IMG/VR virus record: IMGVR_UViG_3300049919_000103 | Span: 1 to 38,475 of that record | Length of the DNA: 38,475 bases | Strand: one strand, 5' to 3' | DNA from: a virus | Shown: positions 5,392 through 24,062 of the stretch, piece after piece | Layout of the letters: each line of letters begins with the position of its first letter | Position numbering within the stretch: position 1 is the stretch's first letter | Notes under the pieces: generated by a model | Databases searched by the model: none | The model's input: only the letters and a program-made list of their open reading frames with translations | What the model was told of the DNA's origin: nothing | Made by a program: the position numbers and the translations under genes

Positions 5392-8300
5392 TTATCCAAT
5401 TATTCCAGTAGCTTTCAGATCAGCTATTAAAGTGGCGACCACGTCCGCTAACTCATTTACAGTTGTTGCGTCTGCATCGTATGTTCTATCTGTCGTTCCG
5501 TTGGTTACTGTGTATGTCGATGAGCGAGCAACAGGTGTCACTCCGTAGAGTCCTACAGTTGTTCCATCGTGGTTTAGTGCTCCGTCAAGCTCTACATCAT
5601 CTGAGAACAAGAAGTTAGCCCCTGCACCAACTGCATTAAATGTCACTGCTCCAGCACTTGATACAGTTGTTGAGAAGTAGTTAGAAACATCGTAGTACAG
5701 TCTTAGTTGCTCTGTTGTAGAAAGTACAGATAGCTTTCCTGCTCCACCTGTAAGGCCTACGTTTGTTTGGCCTGCAAATGCAACTTCACCTCCAAGAGAA
5801 CGGATAGCAAAATTTGTGCCACCTTTTGCCATGTCCTCAAGATAGATACCGTATTGAGTAGTGAGAGTTCCAGAACCTGCCATGTTTCGGAGATACAAGC
5901 CGTAGTGAGCGTTTACTGTTGAACCTGTATTGATTGATGAGTAAATATCAATACCTCGTGAGTCGGTAACGTTGCTGTCATACTGCATTACATAGTACAG
6001 AGCTTTTGATTGAGCCAATGTTCCTGAGCCAGAGAGCGTTTCAATTTGTCCTCCGATACCATAAATAGCCTCGTTTGTTCCTGCACCTGATTTTTGCATT
6101 CTTGACCAAATTCCTGACCAAGAGTATGTGTTCATCGCAGAACTGTTTGATATAGCAGTCAAAGACTTAAATGTTGCCGAGTTATCAGAAATAGTTGTCG
6201 GTGCATAGTAAACAGATTGAGCATGGGCAACAGGTGAAGCGGCATTTAGCACGCTTTCTCCCACTGATAAGTAACCATCTTTATCGAAAGCTGACTGAAC
6301 TGTTCCTGCACTTGTTCTGAATGAAAGTTGAGCACCTGTCTGGTCTGATTTTCTTCGTAGCTCAAGCGTAGAGTCTGTTGCTGTTGTTGTGTTTACTACC
6401 GCTAGTCGAGCTGTGTACAATTCTACTAACCCGTCTCCAAGAGCAATACGACCAGAGCCGAACATAGCCATTCTCTGAGTACCAGAGTTTGTGTTGATTG
6501 AAGGTGTTGTGTAGAAAAATAGCCCAGTGAACGCCTGACCTATACTTGAACCTCCTCCGACATAAAGTTCGTTCACTGAACCTGTCGAAGCATAGTGCAT
6601 TATGTTTACAGCGTTTTGAGCGGTGGCATAAGGAGCGCCGTAAAATCTCCCGTATTTGTCTGTGTTGTTTGTTCGAGTGACGTTGTTCAAGTTCGCCCCC
6701 ATAACAATAGAAGCTGGAGAACCACCGAATGAAACGTCAAGGTAAGGTGCAAGGTTAGCGTTTGCCATTCCAGCCAAAGCTCCTGAACCGAAGCCCATCG
6801 CTCCTGTACTAGCAAACCAAAATGCTTTTGTGCCAACACTGCTTAGAATCGCGAGATAGTCGCCTGTTTGAGAAGTGATACCGTTGATTTCAAGTCCTCT
6901 GTTACCTGTAGCCCCCAGAGTTGTTTTTATTTGAACAGTTGAAGACGGGGCAACACCGACACCAAGTCTACCTGCACTATCAAAAGCAGAAAGAAGTGTT
7001 ACTGATGAGTTCTGTAATTCAAATAAGTTCCCCGACTGAGAAGCCATACCCCTAAGAGTAAGAACCTTGTTTGTTGTAGTTGTTTCGTTCCCAATAAATA
7101 TCTTCGATGTATTCGTTGCATGAGCAAAGTTTGAACTAGAAGTCATTGCTGTATTCCCAGAGTTCATGTATGGAATACGATTTGCTCCAAATGACGATGC
7201 ACCTGTTCCTCCGTAAGCTATACCGATAGGGGAACCAGTTGTGAGGGTTCCAGCGTACACCGTATCTGCGTGAATGTTTGTGTTTATCTCTTGTATAGTT
7301 CCATACGCATTTTCAAAGCGTAAGTGTTGCTGTGCAAAATCCCACTTAAATCTAAGGTAGTCATATAATCCGTTATATCCGAACTTGAAAGGGGTAAAGT
7401 CTGAAGCAAAGTAATCACTTGCAGATTGAAACCAAGCAGCTGACCTTGGAACAACTATTGATGTCGGACTTAGCGTTGGAGTTCCACCTGTCCATGATGT
7501 GAAAGGTGTTATTTGATATGCTACGACGTTTCCAACGTCAATATATTGGTTACCGTTTGCATCGTAAATAATATAACCAGTTACTTGAGTAGCTCCACTC
7601 CAGTCTAAATCAATGTTATAATTACTTGAGTCGTTAGGGTCTGTTGCACTTACATAAAGTCCTCCACTATCATACGCTGTTGAAAATCCATCATAGTAAT
7701 ATGAATATATGTAGTATTGGTAAGTTGTTCCGTTAGCAAAGAACCCAGAACCATCTAGTGTGAACGTAATGTTAGCTGATGTTGGAGGTGTTGGGGTAAC
7801 AGTTTCATCTGCTAGGTTGAAATGTTGAACACCTGTCCAAGTGTTTGAGTTGGCGAGGTTAATACCTAGAGTATCTCCTGTTTCAGTAAGGGTTGAATCT
7901 GTAGCTCCTGTTATATAACCTCCAGCGTTATCAAAAGCAACTGTCAGAGTCTCGTTACCACCGTTATTGTTTTCAGTAAATGTTATTCCTGATCCTGCTA
8001 CTAACTTACCGTTTAGATAACCTGCTGTAGTGTCGTTTGCTGATACTTTTGTTTTTTCGTCGGTGTCTGCTACTGGAATAACAGAAATTCGTGTATCACC
8101 TCCTACTTGTTCTAGGCTGATATTTGCCCCTGCGATGAGCTTACTAGTTGGACCTCCGCCTCCTTTCCCTCTCTCACCTACTGCCACTATACGAGCTTCT
8201 AGGGCATCTAATCCCTCTACTCTCTCTCGTTTGATTTGCTTAGAACTAGTATTAACTTTTTCAATGATCATGTCTGGCAAGTCAGTCACCGCTACTTGCA

Positions 8301-8700
8301 CCACCTTCTCAGTAATAATAGGAATTTCTTTTATAATGGTACTTCTCTCAACCACTTTTTCTACTACTGGAACTTCTATTTTTGAAGCAATTTCTGTTTT
8401 GTCTGAGTCAGTTAAAATATAGTTATCCCCATCTTTTCCATCGAAATAATCCTTCCCTTTAATAGGTGTATAGCCATCATCACCAGGCAATCCTTTTACT
8501 TCTGTCTTCTTTGTTTCTTCTGCAATCGAAAGAGCTTTATCTACTTTTAGGGCTAATTCACTAGCTATTTCATCAACTTTTGCATCCACAGCAATAACGC
8601 TCTCATCTAAAGAGTTGATTTCTTCGAGTAAAGCAATGTCTCCCTTATCGGCTACTTTAGCCAGACGAAGCATTTTCTTTTGTTTCTGATCTAGTTGCAT
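5392..8700 (-). CDS. Large tail fibre / receptor-binding protein
   Basis: 1102 residues, the largest protein in the window. An N-terminal coiled coil (~1-75) is followed by a short collagen-like stretch (GLPGDDGYTPIKGKDYFDG), then long Gly/Ser/Thr-rich beta repeats with GNETTTTNK and GSG-type segments typical of fibre shafts. The C-terminus is a short helical tail (ELADVVATLIADLKATG). The N-terminus probably anchors to the tail and the distal repeats carry host contacts. Its upstream flank is the plus-strand island rather than another late gene, so it may need its own promoter. Confidence 0.8.
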   Translation of the reverse strand: MQLDQKQKKMLRLAKVADKGDIALLEEINSLDESVIAVDAKVDEIASELALKVDKALSIAEETKKTEVKGLPGDDGYTPIKGKDYFDGKDGDNYILTDSDKTEIASKIEVPVVEKVVERSTIIKEIPIITEKVVQVAVTDLPDMIIEKVNTSSKQIKRERVEGLDALEARIVAVGERGKGGGGPTSKLIAGANISLEQVGGDTRISVIPVADTDEKTKVSANDTTAGYLNGKLVAGSGITFTENNNGGNETLTVAFDNAGGYITGATDSTLTETGDTLGINLANSNTWTGVQHFNLADETVTPTPPTSANITFTLDGSGFFANGTTYQYYIYSYYYDGFSTAYDSGGLYVSATDPNDSSNYNIDLDWSGATQVTGYIIYDANGNQYIDVGNVVAYQITPFTSWTGGTPTLSPTSIVVPRSAAWFQSASDYFASDFTPFKFGYNGLYDYLRFKWDFAQQHLRFENAYGTIQEINTNIHADTVYAGTLTTGSPIGIAYGGTGASSFGANRIPYMNSGNTAMTSSSNFAHATNTSKIFIGNETTTTNKVLTLRGMASQSGNLFELQNSSVTLLSAFDSAGRLGVGVAPSSTVQIKTTLGATGNRGLEINGITSQTGDYLAILSSVGTKAFWFASTGAMGFGSGALAGMANANLAPYLDVSFGGSPASIVMGANLNNVTRTNNTDKYGRFYGAPYATAQNAVNIMHYASTGSVNELYVGGGSSIGQAFTGLFFYTTPSINTNSGTQRMAMFGSGRIALGDGLVELYTARLAVVNTTTATDSTLELRRKSDQTGAQLSFRTSAGTVQSAFDKDGYLSVGESVLNAASPVAHAQSVYYAPTTISDNSATFKSLTAISNSSAMNTYSWSGIWSRMQKSGAGTNEAIYGIGGQIETLSGSGTLAQSKALYYVMQYDSNVTDSRGIDIYSSINTGSTVNAHYGLYLRNMAGSGTLTTQYGIYLEDMAKGGTNFAIRSLGGEVAFAGQTNVGLTGGAGKLSVLSTTEQLRLYYDVSNYFSTTVSSAGAVTFNAVGAGANFLFSDDVELDGALNHDGTTVGLYGVTPVARSSTYTVTNGTTDRTYDADATTVNELADVVATLIADLKATGIIG

Positions 8701-8723
8701 TTTAATGGATTAGTTTTAATTTA

Positions 8724-8751
8724 TTGCAGAGATATATAGTTGAGGTATAAT
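8724..8751 (+). promoter_or_regulatory. Plus-strand sigma70-type promoter for the tRNA island
   Basis: TTGCAG (8724-8729), 16 nt, TATAAT (8746-8751). The -10 is a perfect match. Predicted start is near 8758, leading into the folded leader and the tRNA. It faces against the surrounding late operon. Confidence 0.65.
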
Positions 8752-8754
8752 GGA

Positions 8755-8865
8755 GTTGCCTGAAAAGGTCATCAACTGTAAGACGGATTAGATTTTCAAA
8801 ACTCTATTCACTAATCGTTTGTTGCTAGATTTTCTATCAACGACGGTTGATGAATGGAGTTTTTT
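8755..8865 (+). promoter_or_regulatory. Attenuator-like folded leader before the tRNA
   Basis: A 13-bp stem with one G-U pair (8798-8810/8851-8863) enclosing nested stems (8816-8829/8833-8845) runs straight into six T (8860-8865), an intrinsic-terminator signature 4 nt before the tRNA. Competing pairings exist: 8783-8791/8811-8818 (ACgGATTAG/CTAATCGT), which traps the terminator 5' arm in its loop, and 8770-8776/8846-8852 (CATCAAC/GTTGATG). This looks like a terminator/antiterminator switch. No T-box sequence is present. Confidence 0.55.
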
Positions 8866-8869
8866 ATAT

Positions 8870-8964
8870 GGAGGGGTGGTAGAGCGGTTTATTGCAACTG
8901 TCTTAAACACAGTCGGACTACCTTGACCAGGTCAGTTCCGTGGGTTCGAATCCCATCCCCTCCG
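8870..8964 (+). tRNA. Class II tRNA, anticodon UAA, with serine-like body
   Basis: All arms fold. The acceptor is GGAGGGG/CCCCTCC. The D stem is GTA/TGC. The anticodon stem is ACTGT/ACAGT with loop CTTAAAC, giving UAA (Leu UUA codon). A long variable arm follows (GACT ACCT/AGGT c AGTT), then the T stem GTGGG/CCCAT with loop TTCGAAT. The discriminator is G (8964) and CCA is not encoded (GCA follows). The G73, the GGAG acceptor and the D-loop AGCGGTTTA resemble bacterial tRNA-Ser rather than tRNA-Leu, which carries A73. Standard tools would label it tRNA-Leu(TAA). Charging identity is uncertain. Confidence 0.85.
8915..8932 (+). repeat. 18-nt inverted repeat, arm 1 (tRNA variable arm)
   Basis: GGACTACCTTGACCAGGT forms most of the tRNA variable arm and is the exact reverse complement of 9031-9048. 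A perfect 18-mer match 98 nt away is not expected by chance. Confidence 0.95.
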
Positions 8965-8971
8965 CATTGAG

Positions 8972-8991
8972 TTATCCACAGTTTATACACT
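8972..8991 (+). promoter_or_regulatory. DnaA box pair (possible origin element)
   Basis: TTATCCACA at 8972-8980 matches the bacterial DnaA box exactly. TTATACACT at 8983-8991 differs at one or two positions. Both lie in non-coding DNA directly after the tRNA. With no phage initiator, polymerase or helicase found, a host DnaA-loaded origin is plausible, but one strong box is thin evidence. Confidence 0.4.
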
Positions 8992-8996
8992 TAATC

Positions 8997-9024
8997 TTGC
9001 TTTCTGCCCTATTCTTGGTATAGT
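8997..9024 (+). promoter_or_regulatory. Extended -10 promoter of the putative sRNA
   Basis: TTGCTT (8997-9002), 16 nt, TATAGT (9019-9024) preceded by TGG, an extended -10. The predicted start, 7 nt downstream, falls at 9031, exactly where complementarity to the tRNA begins. Confidence 0.6.
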
Positions 9025-9030
9025 GTTAAT

Positions 9031-9168
9031 ACCTGGTCAAGGTAGTCCTAATGTTCTAACCAATCTATTGGACAAGAATAAACGGACTAATAACATTTTT
9101 CTTTAAAAGGCCTTCTAGTACAGTTAGAGAAGAATGTTAGCAGAAGCACCCGAAAGGGTGTTTTTTGT
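9031..9168 (+). ncRNA. Putative sRNA antisense to the tRNA variable arm
   Basis: A transcript from the promoter at 8997-9024 to the terminator at 9146-9168 would be ~138 nt with no ORF of useful length. Its first 18 nt (9031-9048) are exactly complementary to 8915-8932 of the upstream tRNA. Internal stems AGTCC/GGACT (9044-9048/9084-9088), AATGTT/AACATT (9050-9055/9092-9097) and CCAA/TTGG would partly fold it. It could bind the tRNA or its precursor. In a read-through transcript the same repeat would form an 18-bp hairpin that unfolds the tRNA. Confidence 0.6.
9146..9168 (+). terminator. Intrinsic terminator of the sRNA/tRNA unit
   Basis: A CACCC stem, GAAA tetraloop and GGGTG, followed by TTTTTTG. 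The stem can extend by a G-U pair. This is a classic plus-strand terminator that separates the RNA genes from the three small ORFs. Confidence 0.9.
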
Positions 9169-9207
9169 TATTTACCCTGAGAATATTCTGTTTTGTTGAT
9201 AACTTAT

Positions 9208-9235
9208 TTGCATTTTTTTAGATGTGTGGTATACC
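9208..9235 (+). promoter_or_regulatory. Plus-strand promoter of the small-membrane-protein cassette
   Basis: TTGCAT (9208-9213), 16 nt, TATACC (9230-9235) with an upstream TGG extended -10. The first ATG (9244) is 8 nt past the -10, so the mRNA would start at or next to the start codon and be leaderless. Confidence 0.6.
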
Positions 9236-9243
9236 TGTTAAAT

Positions 9244-9303
9244 ATGATAGCGATCTTAGGAGTTGTCTTCGCTCTATGTGTCGGATACTTTTTATTTGAT
9301 TAA
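9244..9303 (+). CDS. 19-residue membrane peptide
   Basis: A tiny ORF with sequence MIAILGVVFALCVGYFLFD: one hydrophobic helix with an acidic end. It is too short for family assignment. It is first in a three-gene plus-strand cassette and probably translated from a leaderless mRNA. Small hydrophobic peptides of this kind are used by phages in lysis control, exclusion or toxin roles, but none can be assigned. Confidence 0.5.
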   Translation: MIAILGVVFALCVGYFLFD

Positions 9304-9317
9304 TTAACTTAACTAAC

Positions 9318-9461
9318 ATGATATTTTGGATAATAGTAGTAATAGTATTGTTTATGTTTGCTAACCTTTACTATAAAAAGATTTGGCCTAAACAGAGAGG
9401 AAAGATTTTATTGAGGAAGGCAGAAAAATATTTAGAAGATAGAGATAATAAACTTAAATAA
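9318..9461 (+). CDS. 47-residue membrane protein
   Basis: The N-terminal ~20 residues are a membrane segment (MIFWIIVVIVLFMFANLYY). The rest is a highly charged helix (KKIWPKQRGKILLRKAEKYLEDRD) predicted to lie in the cytoplasm. It follows the 19-residue ORF by 14 nt and precedes the next by 1 nt. No family recognised. The pattern of one anchor and a basic helix resembles small inner-membrane effectors. Confidence 0.6.
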   Translation: MIFWIIVVIVLFMFANLYYKKIWPKQRGKILLRKAEKYLEDRDNKLK

Positions 9462-9462
9462 T

Positions 9463-9543
9463 ATGGGATGGCTAACTGCAATAGTTACAGTTTGGTTTGT
9501 TTTATGGCTTTTAAACCAAATCAAAGTTAAAGACAGATGGTAA
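9463..9543 (+). CDS. 26-residue membrane peptide
   Basis: MGWLTAIVTVWFVLWLLNQI then a basic tail KVKDRW: a Trp-rich single membrane helix with positive-inside signature. Its ATG comes one base after the upstream stop. Its own stop (9541-9543) abuts the stop of the convergent minus-strand gene at 9544 with no gap, so the cassette fits exactly between late genes. Confidence 0.55.
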   Translation: MGWLTAIVTVWFVLWLLNQIKVKDRW

Positions 9544-10902
9544 CTACTTACCTTTATTTTGTATATATCGCTCAGCAGTACCAATTGGATCTTTGATTTT
9601 ATCAATAACAAAGTCAAAAGCTTTTTCTGTTAGCCCCCTTGCTGTTGTAGGAATTTCTAACAAACTATTAGATCTAACGTCTCCTAAGACTTCCATGACA
9701 TACTTAGCTAGTCTTGCGTCCCTTGAAAAATCTTTACCTGTTAACTTTTGCAAACTCTCAAAAAGTTCTTTAGTTCTGGCATCTGATGGGCTAAATAACC
9801 TTTTAACAAATGATCCAGCACCACCTCCTTCTTTACCTACTTTAGCATTCAACTCCTGAACTACCTCCATTAGTTCTGAATACTGTTTGTTATAATTTTT
9901 ATATGCATCACCTCCTATTTCACCTGCCTTTTTATTAAGGTTGGTAAGTATTTGTCGCAGCGGTCCAGTAATTCTATCTGTTATTTCTACCGCGTTACTT
10001 CTGCCAGCTTTATATAGGCTGTCTTGTAGTAAGTCGATAGTTTGATCTACTTCTTTAAGTGTAGGATTATTAGAAATTTTCTTTAGCTCGTCAAAAAAAG
10101 TTTGTACCGCCTTTTTATCTGATGCATCTAACTTTAGTGAGTTAAATGTTTTTTTAGTTTCGAGAAGTGCATCACGTACAATAGTACCTGTTCTTTTAAG
10201 ACCTATCTTTGCTTGATTTAGAAATGCAGATTTCGCCTCACCAATTGATGACGCTCTATCTTTTAATTGTTTGAGACCATCGATAATTTCATCTCCCACC
10301 GACTCTAAAGGTGTTCTTATTCTGTCGTCAGATAATGCGGCTTTACCTTTTTCTACAAATGACTGGAAGACTTCCTTAGGCGTTCTGTCTAAGGCTGTTT
10401 TAGTTTTCTGGTCTAGGTTAACTAACATATCCCCAATCTTGTCTTTTACTTTTATACCTCCTTCAACAACGTCATCACCTAGTTCACTCAATCTTGAGCC
10501 TATACCATCAAAAGATGCCCCAACAATCTTTTTACTTTTCATTGTAGCATCAGCAACAGCGTCTATTTTTCCAGCTGGGTATGCTAATTCAGCAAAAAAC
10601 TCAATTGCTTTTCCCACTTTTTGATTATTATTTGAAGCTGTAAAATCTGCATTTGTTAATGATTTTATTCCTGAAGTCTGTCTGATTTGTTCATATGTTT
10701 TTGTAGGATCTACAGTAGCTAAAACACGTTGACCTAAATTCTGAGTTGATTGAATTGTATCTCCAACACCTTTAGCAAAACCAATCCCTAAGTCTTTTAT
10801 TACAGAGCCGGAATTGTTATTCGTTTTGCTGCTATTGTTTTTTGTTTCTAAAGGTGTCACTTTCCCTCCCTTAGAAAATTCTTCAAATGATACTATTGTC
10901 AT
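9544..10902 (-). CDS. Internal virion / DNA ejection protein (helical)
   Basis: 452 residues, almost entirely helical and charged, with a Ser/Asn/Thr-rich N-terminus and no predicted signal. Its position directly downstream of the transglycosylase-bearing virion protein, with 1 nt between them, matches the ejection-protein pairs of P22-like and T7-like podoviruses. These are packaged in the capsid and injected to build a channel through the cell envelope. Sequence alone gives no family match; the role is inferred from place, size and composition. Confidence 0.6.
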   Translation of the reverse strand: MTIVSFEEFSKGGKVTPLETKNNSSKTNNNSGSVIKDLGIGFAKGVGDTIQSTQNLGQRVLATVDPTKTYEQIRQTSGIKSLTNADFTASNNNQKVGKAIEFFAELAYPAGKIDAVADATMKSKKIVGASFDGIGSRLSELGDDVVEGGIKVKDKIGDMLVNLDQKTKTALDRTPKEVFQSFVEKGKAALSDDRIRTPLESVGDEIIDGLKQLKDRASSIGEAKSAFLNQAKIGLKRTGTIVRDALLETKKTFNSLKLDASDKKAVQTFFDELKKISNNPTLKEVDQTIDLLQDSLYKAGRSNAVEITDRITGPLRQILTNLNKKAGEIGGDAYKNYNKQYSELMEVVQELNAKVGKEGGGAGSFVKRLFSPSDARTKELFESLQKLTGKDFSRDARLAKYVMEVLGDVRSNSLLEIPTTARGLTEKAFDFVIDKIKDPIGTAERYIQNKGK

Positions 10903-23066: not shown

Positions 23067-24062
23067 CTAAGCGGCATTAAATCCGTCTGTAGCCCCTGTC
23101 TTTAGGTTGATTACCCAGTTCGTGTTAAGAGTCTTAGCAACGAAAGGCATCTTCCATCCAACTGTTGAGTATTGATCCAGAGGGTTGTCTGTAGAATTTG
23201 ATCCTGGATTCTTCACGTACACTTTTGGCGTAGAAATAGAACCTAGGTTAATAACACCGTAACCGTTCATACCACAGAAGAAGTTTGAGTATACGTTAGC
23301 AACATTAGTCGCAGATGTAGAAAATCCTCCTGATAGTGTGAAGTGTTGGTTGTTAGTTTCTGCAAATTGAACTCCACCTAGTTTACCAACTACACCAGAC
23401 TTGATAGCTTCTGGAGTTGCGTAAATGTTAGCGTTTACCCATTCAGTATTTCCCATAAGGTCCATAGCTGTATCAGGTCCGATGATTGCTCGGTAGTACC
23501 CATCGTCAAATTTCTTTGCTTTGTTTTTCATCAGAGATCGTCGAACTCGTCGTACTTCAAGACCTGTTAGAGTATCTGAAGTGTGAATAGTTGAGATCGC
23601 TGTTGTTGATCCAGTAGACCCTCCAGTTGATGTAGACACCAACATGTTAGTTGCTCCTGAAACAAGTTCAGCTCGGATAAGTTGGTCGATAGATTCACCG
23701 GCGTTTTGACCGTGTACTGAAACGTGTTCTGAAAGACCAGTTTCAATAGATGTCATTGAGTAAAGTGATCCTACTGTTGTGTAAGTACCGTAATCAGCCA
23801 GAGTTGCAGAGATTGTAGAAGCTGTCATATCAACAGCTGTTGGATTAGCTGCTTCTGAAAGAGGTGAAGTAATTACTGCTAGAGGTGTAAACCGTGTGAA
23901 ATACACAGTCTTACCACTGTTCATAGGGATGTTTTTTACTTGTGCTCCGTAGTCGTGTCGAAGTTCGATTTTGGCTCGATCAAGAAAAACTCGATCGTAG
24001 AATATTTGCATAGGCGATGTCAAACCTGGGTTTGAACCTTGTGCAAGGGTAGTTGTACTCAT
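23067..24062 (-). CDS. Major capsid protein, N4-gp56 family-like
   Basis: 331 residues. The layout matches N4-gp56-type HK97-fold capsid proteins: an N-terminal IFYDRVFLDRAKIELRHDYGAQVKNIPMNSGKTVYFTRF segment, then an Ala/Thr/Ser-rich middle (DYGTYTTVGSLYSMTSIE), a VRRVRRSLMKNKAKKFDDGYYRAIIGPDTAMDL block, and VGWKMPFVAKTLNTNWVINLKTG at the end. It forms the procapsid and head shell. It follows the scaffold gene and is followed by a strong hairpin. Leader is AT-rich with no SD. Confidence 0.9.
   Translation of the reverse strand: MSTTTLAQGSNPGLTSPMQIFYDRVFLDRAKIELRHDYGAQVKNIPMNSGKTVYFTRFTPLAVITSPLSEAANPTAVDMTASTISATLADYGTYTTVGSLYSMTSIETGLSEHVSVHGQNAGESIDQLIRAELVSGATNMLVSTSTGGSTGSTTAISTIHTSDTLTGLEVRRVRRSLMKNKAKKFDDGYYRAIIGPDTAMDLMGNTEWVNANIYATPEAIKSGVVGKLGGVQFAETNNQHFTLSGGFSTSATNVANVYSNFFCGMNGYGVINLGSISTPKVYVKNPGSNSTDNPLDQYSTVGWKMPFVAKTLNTNWVINLKTGATDGFNAA

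Follow-up and report, generated by a model that had tools for sequence, protein, structure and literature searches.

Antisense RNAs are established controllers of mRNAs and replication primers. A phage locus in which a tRNA gene is followed, on the same strand, by the exact reverse complement of its own variable arm raises the question of whether a phage might direct such an RNA at its own tRNA. The locus lies in a 38,475-base virus DNA record, the whole of which is here called the window. By capsid protein, the closest named relatives (34% identity) infect Bacillus megaterium and include the phages Pony and Page; 51 nearer uncultured relatives were used for comparison.

A plus-strand island between two late genes

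Nearly all genes of the window are carried by the minus strand, and throughout the window the phage genes are without clear Shine-Dalgarno sequences before their starts. Between two minus-strand late genes sits an 843-bp block in which all recognisable features lie on the plus strand. In one relative (G008), 73 nt separate the homologous genes, and the island thus looks like an insertion. The following features were identified, the promoters, RNA units and terminator by prediction from the sequence:

5392-8700, minus strand, late gene flanking the island
8701-9543, plus strand, inserted island (843 bp)
8724-8751, plus strand, promoter P_A (TTGCAG, 16 nt, TATAAT)
8758-8866 (strongly folded region 8756-8866), plus strand, RNA A behind P_A, a probable leader
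8870-8965, plus strand, tRNA recognised by ARAGORN and Rfam, with a UAA anticodon on a serine-type body
8915-8932, plus strand, part of the variable arm predicted to pair with the RNA B 5' end (18/18)
8997-9024, plus strand, promoter P_B (TTGCTT, 16 nt ending in TTGG, TATAGT; extended -10)
9031-9168, plus strand, RNA B, a predicted antisense small RNA of 138 nt
9031-9048, plus strand, predicted RNA B 5' end, exact complement of the variable arm
9142-9166, plus strand, RNA B intrinsic terminator (stem-loop 9142-9165, then a T-run)
9208-9235, plus strand, promoter P_C (TTGCAT, 16 nt, TATACC)
9244-9303, 9318-9461 and 9463-9543, plus strand, three tiny hydrophobic ORFs behind P_C (19, 47 and 26 aa)
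9544-10902, minus strand, late gene flanking the island

An initial annotation of this locus had described the complementarity and the predicted small RNA; the insertion, the serine body of the tRNA, the terminator-like hairpin upstream of it and the likeness of the three promoters are additions of the present analysis. Among the ORFs behind P_C, the 19-aa ORF at 9244 would be nearly leaderless, and a search for relatives of the 47-aa ORF found none.

Predicted promoters and RNA units

The initial annotation had placed an extended -10 promoter upstream of the complement, with a start at the complement's first base. Its elements are indeed present (TTGCTT at 8997-9002, a 16-nt spacer ending in TTGG and TATAGT at 9019-9024) and put the predicted +1 of P_B at about 9031. 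The -35 element is weak, matching the consensus at three of six positions, which is why a generic promoter scan does not list P_B. The same layout recurs in the island. TTGC-N16-GGTATA occurs four times on the two strands of the window, three of these on the plus strand of the island (8724, 8997 and 9208). The expectation for the window as a whole is 0.09 occurrences, a figure that does not amount to a clean test since the motif was defined after the sites had been seen. As a sequence pattern, three like promoters within one block provide strong support for predicted transcription units in the island.

RNA B is bracketed by the predicted promoter at 8997-9024 and the terminator at 9142-9166. 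The latter was the sole terminator returned by a scan of 8600-9700 and coincides with the intrinsic terminator that had been claimed for the end of the unit. The predicted fold of RNA B (-46.4 kcal/mol, z -5.6) was equalled in stability by 0 of 200 shuffles. The small RNA of about 138 nt that had been proposed thus stands as a predicted unit, for which the threefold promoter layout, the fold, the plus-strand terminator and a match length above chance (described below) all speak, and on sequence grounds there is good support for a free-standing small RNA that would begin with the complement's first base. Since the tRNA and RNA B are encoded on the same strand, RNA B would need a start of its own and could not arise by simple antisense transcription.

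RNA A is likewise predicted to be structured (fold z -5.0). A long hairpin at 8798-8863 with a T6 run is terminator-like and ends 4 nt before the tRNA, and an alternative pairing (8769-8779 with 8843-8853) competes with it in an attenuator-like manner. This arrangement suggests that the tRNA probably arises from transcription reading through the RNA A hairpin and that its expression may be attenuated there.

Assignment of these RNAs to a known RNA family, a T-box or a riboswitch was rejected, as the Rfam gathering score was passed by the tRNA and by neither RNA A nor RNA B. Searches by DNA, by protein, by a covariance model (unvalidated on a second true member) and by exact pieces returned no homologue of RNA A, RNA B or the island. 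A search for covariation between the two 18-mers found no relative with either the tRNA or the small RNA.

Complementarity to the tRNA variable arm

Positions 9031-9048 are the exact reverse complement of 8915-8932 (18/18). As had been claimed, the latter belong to the tRNA variable arm, falling inside the 26-nt variable region (8914-8939). With mismatches permitted, the match grows to 22/24 (8909-8932 with 9031-9054), and the 18-mer duplex has a predicted energy of -34.9 kcal/mol.

We compared this match with the surroundings of 126 other tRNAs, mostly from phages, where antisense matches up to 500 nt away from the tRNA reach no more than 6-10 nt. The same range of 6-10 nt was obtained in 300 dinucleotide shuffles of both 500-nt flanks of the present tRNA, against 18 nt in the real sequence. 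With 10 nt as the maximum in both comparisons, a chance origin of the 18-nt match is excluded for practical purposes. Complementarity beyond chance, such as would be expected between a dedicated antisense small RNA and its target, is thus observed here.

The whole window contains one other perfect inverted repeat of at least 18 nt within 300 nt (1497/1600). It is part of a 27-nt repeat (1497-1523 / 1591-1617, 89%) in a non-coding stretch.

A serine-type body with a UAA anticodon

ARAGORN labels the tRNA Leu(UAA), and its sequence has an evident serine ancestry. Over its first 27 nt it matches a tRNA-Ser(UGA) in locus L131 at every position, the T arm and acceptor are nearly identical between the two, and the differences fall in the anticodon arm and the variable arm. 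Among the serine determinants given in PMC9976931, those present in the phage tRNA include the discriminator G73 (at 8964; CCA is absent from the gene), G1-C72, G2-C71 and the long variable arm. The bacterial serine determinant C11-G24 is absent, the phage tRNA having U11-G24, as does the L131 tRNA-Ser(UGA). The leucine tRNA feature A73 is absent as well, G73 being in its place.

Serine identity rests mainly on the variable arm and not on the anticodon, and the LeuRS of E. coli discriminates against G73 (PMC9976931). Taken with the serine-type body and G73, this identity rule suggests that the phage tRNA probably accepts serine while decoding the leucine codon UUA. The antisense match falls on the variable arm, the chief determinant of serine identity.

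The phage has 216 UUA codons. In relatives, the corresponding positions are 47% Leu and 2% Ser, as for other Leu codons. UUA thus aligns with leucine, the phage code is standard and a code change to UUA = serine was rejected. UUA is avoided in the capsid gene (23067-24062; 0/22), and we considered whether this might be a sign of mistranslation; this was rejected, since most of the relatives without the tRNA (L004-L054) avoid UUA there as well.

An antisense model for RNA B

The reading that we tentatively prefer, while putting its chances somewhat short of even, is that RNA B would be an antisense RNA dedicated to inactivating the unusual phage tRNA or the precursor of this tRNA. Were transcription to start at 9031, the 5' end of RNA B would be the exact complement of the variable arm. 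The variable arm and the RNA B 18-mer form like small hairpins in prediction, whose 5-nt loops, UGACC on the tRNA side and GGUCA on that of RNA B, complement each other, and binding would thus be expected to begin with a loop-loop contact and to spread from there into the 18-bp duplex. Such a duplex would mask the variable arm and break the tRNA fold, which would leave the tRNA or precursor uncharged or cleaved by a double-strand RNase.

Modelling of the RNAs is consistent with this mechanism. The predicted joint fold of the tRNA and RNA B opens the tRNA, and binding of RNA B to the tRNA or precursor is predicted to be thermodynamically favoured. Among six pairs of island RNAs, tRNA-B alone departs from shuffles (z -3.1), and the A-tRNA, A-B, B-C, A-C and tRNA-C pairs gave nothing above shuffles. 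Several points count against the antisense reading: it is based on one genome, with no homologue of RNA A, RNA B or the island returned by the searches; P_B has a weak -35 element and escapes the generic scan; RNA B would need its own start on the strand of the tRNA; and the variable arm is structured in the folded tRNA, which slows pairing.

A serine-type tRNA left unchecked would be expected to insert serine at UUA in both host and phage genes. As an excess of such a tRNA would presumably be harmful, RNA B could plausibly limit its activity or time it. In its fullest form this would be an RNA-only restraint circuit, in which a mistranslating serine-charged tRNA is held off by masking of the variable arm, which its synthetase recognises, and freed at a set time or on decay of the antisense RNA. 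We regard this full circuit as improbable.

Other explanations of the inverted copy

Four other explanations were considered. In descending order of likelihood they are a relic of template switching, a hairpin acting in cis, a sponge role and a DNA segment that inverts. Template switching during replication is a recognised source of short inverted copies, and an 18-24 nt copy could have been made in this way and have come to lie by accident inside an unrelated structured small RNA. The imperfect 22/24 extension suits a longer copy in decay, and conservation of the match cannot be demonstrated from one genome. Such an accident would, however, have had to produce a copy that starts at the predicted promoter +1 and covers exactly the variable arm, and the 18 nt are intact though no protein constraint preserves them. 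We consider a mutational relic unlikely, while giving it appreciable weight.

A second explanation dispenses with RNA B as a separate transcript. P_B would perhaps be weak or absent, and in RNA read through from P_A the tRNA would pair with 9031-9048 into a misfolded, non-tRNA form. That read-through RNA would form a hairpin disrupting the tRNA had already been suggested by the initial annotation, and folding of 8870-9168 does predict this hairpin; the terminator-like hairpin 5' of the tRNA also hints at regulated read-through. A complete tRNA can, however, fold and be excised before the complement is transcribed, and P_B together with the strong RNA B fold points to a separate unit. A switch in cis seems to us a poor prospect.

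Sponge RNAs derived from tRNA transcripts exist, for example 3'ETS-leuZ in E. coli. By analogy, RNA B might have its main target elsewhere in the host or phage and be titrated by the tRNA or its precursor. Host targets of RNA B are conceivable. On the other side, a search of IMG/VR returned no second exact copy of the 18-mer, 1.3 Mb of loci contain no copy with up to 3 mismatches except in the window itself, and none of the other pairs of island RNAs rises above shuffles. We judge this role very unlikely.

Least credible of all is a DNA inverton, with a recombinase flipping the 98-bp, P_B-bearing segment (8933-9030) that lies between the two inverted repeats of 18-24 nt. The repeat and spacer sizes are within the range of invertible promoters, but flipping would destroy the tRNA, and the window proteins covered by searches included no recognised recombinase.

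Comparison with known systems

The antisense model has its closest mechanistic parallels in CopA/CopT of plasmid R1 and RNAI/RNAII of ColE1, where antisense control proceeds through loop-loop contact. Like these, RNA B as predicted would be a short RNA transcribed from a promoter of its own to a terminator of its own, with a hairpin loop complementary to the loop of a nearby RNA. The phage system differs in that its target would be a tRNA and in that its genes are on the same strand, whereas those of the plasmid systems overlap on opposite strands. Two small stable RNAs of the T4 tRNA cluster, C and D, resemble RNA B in being non-tRNA small RNAs that adjoin a phage tRNA gene. To our knowledge, RNAs C and D have no complementarity to a tRNA, whereas RNA B complements its tRNA at 18/18. 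CreTA is likewise an RNA-only pair centred on a tRNA, with a toxin RNA that sequesters a tRNA and an antitoxin RNA that guides a CRISPR effector (PMC8501985). The present locus differs from CreTA in that the tRNA itself would be the controlled partner and in that no Cas gene was recognised.

A search of open-access papers on phage antisense RNAs against tRNA returned nothing fitting, and we found no report in this literature of an antisense RNA against a phage's own tRNA, notably against its identity-setting arm. If the model is true, RNA B would be an RNA that governs tRNA identity or supply during infection. It would also raise the question of why a phage should keep a tRNA of serine type that reads a leucine codon, for which mistranslation, a decoy for tRNA-cutting defences and codon supply are conceivable answers.

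The tRNA resembles allo-tRNAs and tRNA-Ser(UAA) genes, which likewise place the anticodon of a different amino acid in a tRNA bearing serine identity elements. Bacterial genomes, mostly MAGs, contain a handful of tRNA-Ser(UAA) genes; the present gene differs from them in being phage-borne, in its replaced 26-nt variable region and in the adjacent predicted antisense RNA. Downstream of the bacterial genes, no antisense neighbour longer than 9 nt was found. A strict pattern for such tRNAs recovered no other complete example from IMG/VR, together with two truncated relics, and the same pattern recovered about seven tRNAs from 84,980 species genomes. The truncated relics, of tRNA-Ser with anticodon UAA, lie inside phage tRNA clusters (L089 2889-2926 and L090 4416-4453). 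Rare serine-bodied UAA tRNAs are present in the bacterial genomes L092, L098, L100, L101 and L102, and some of the bacterial examples adjoin genes that, judged by eye, are transposase- or recombinase-like.
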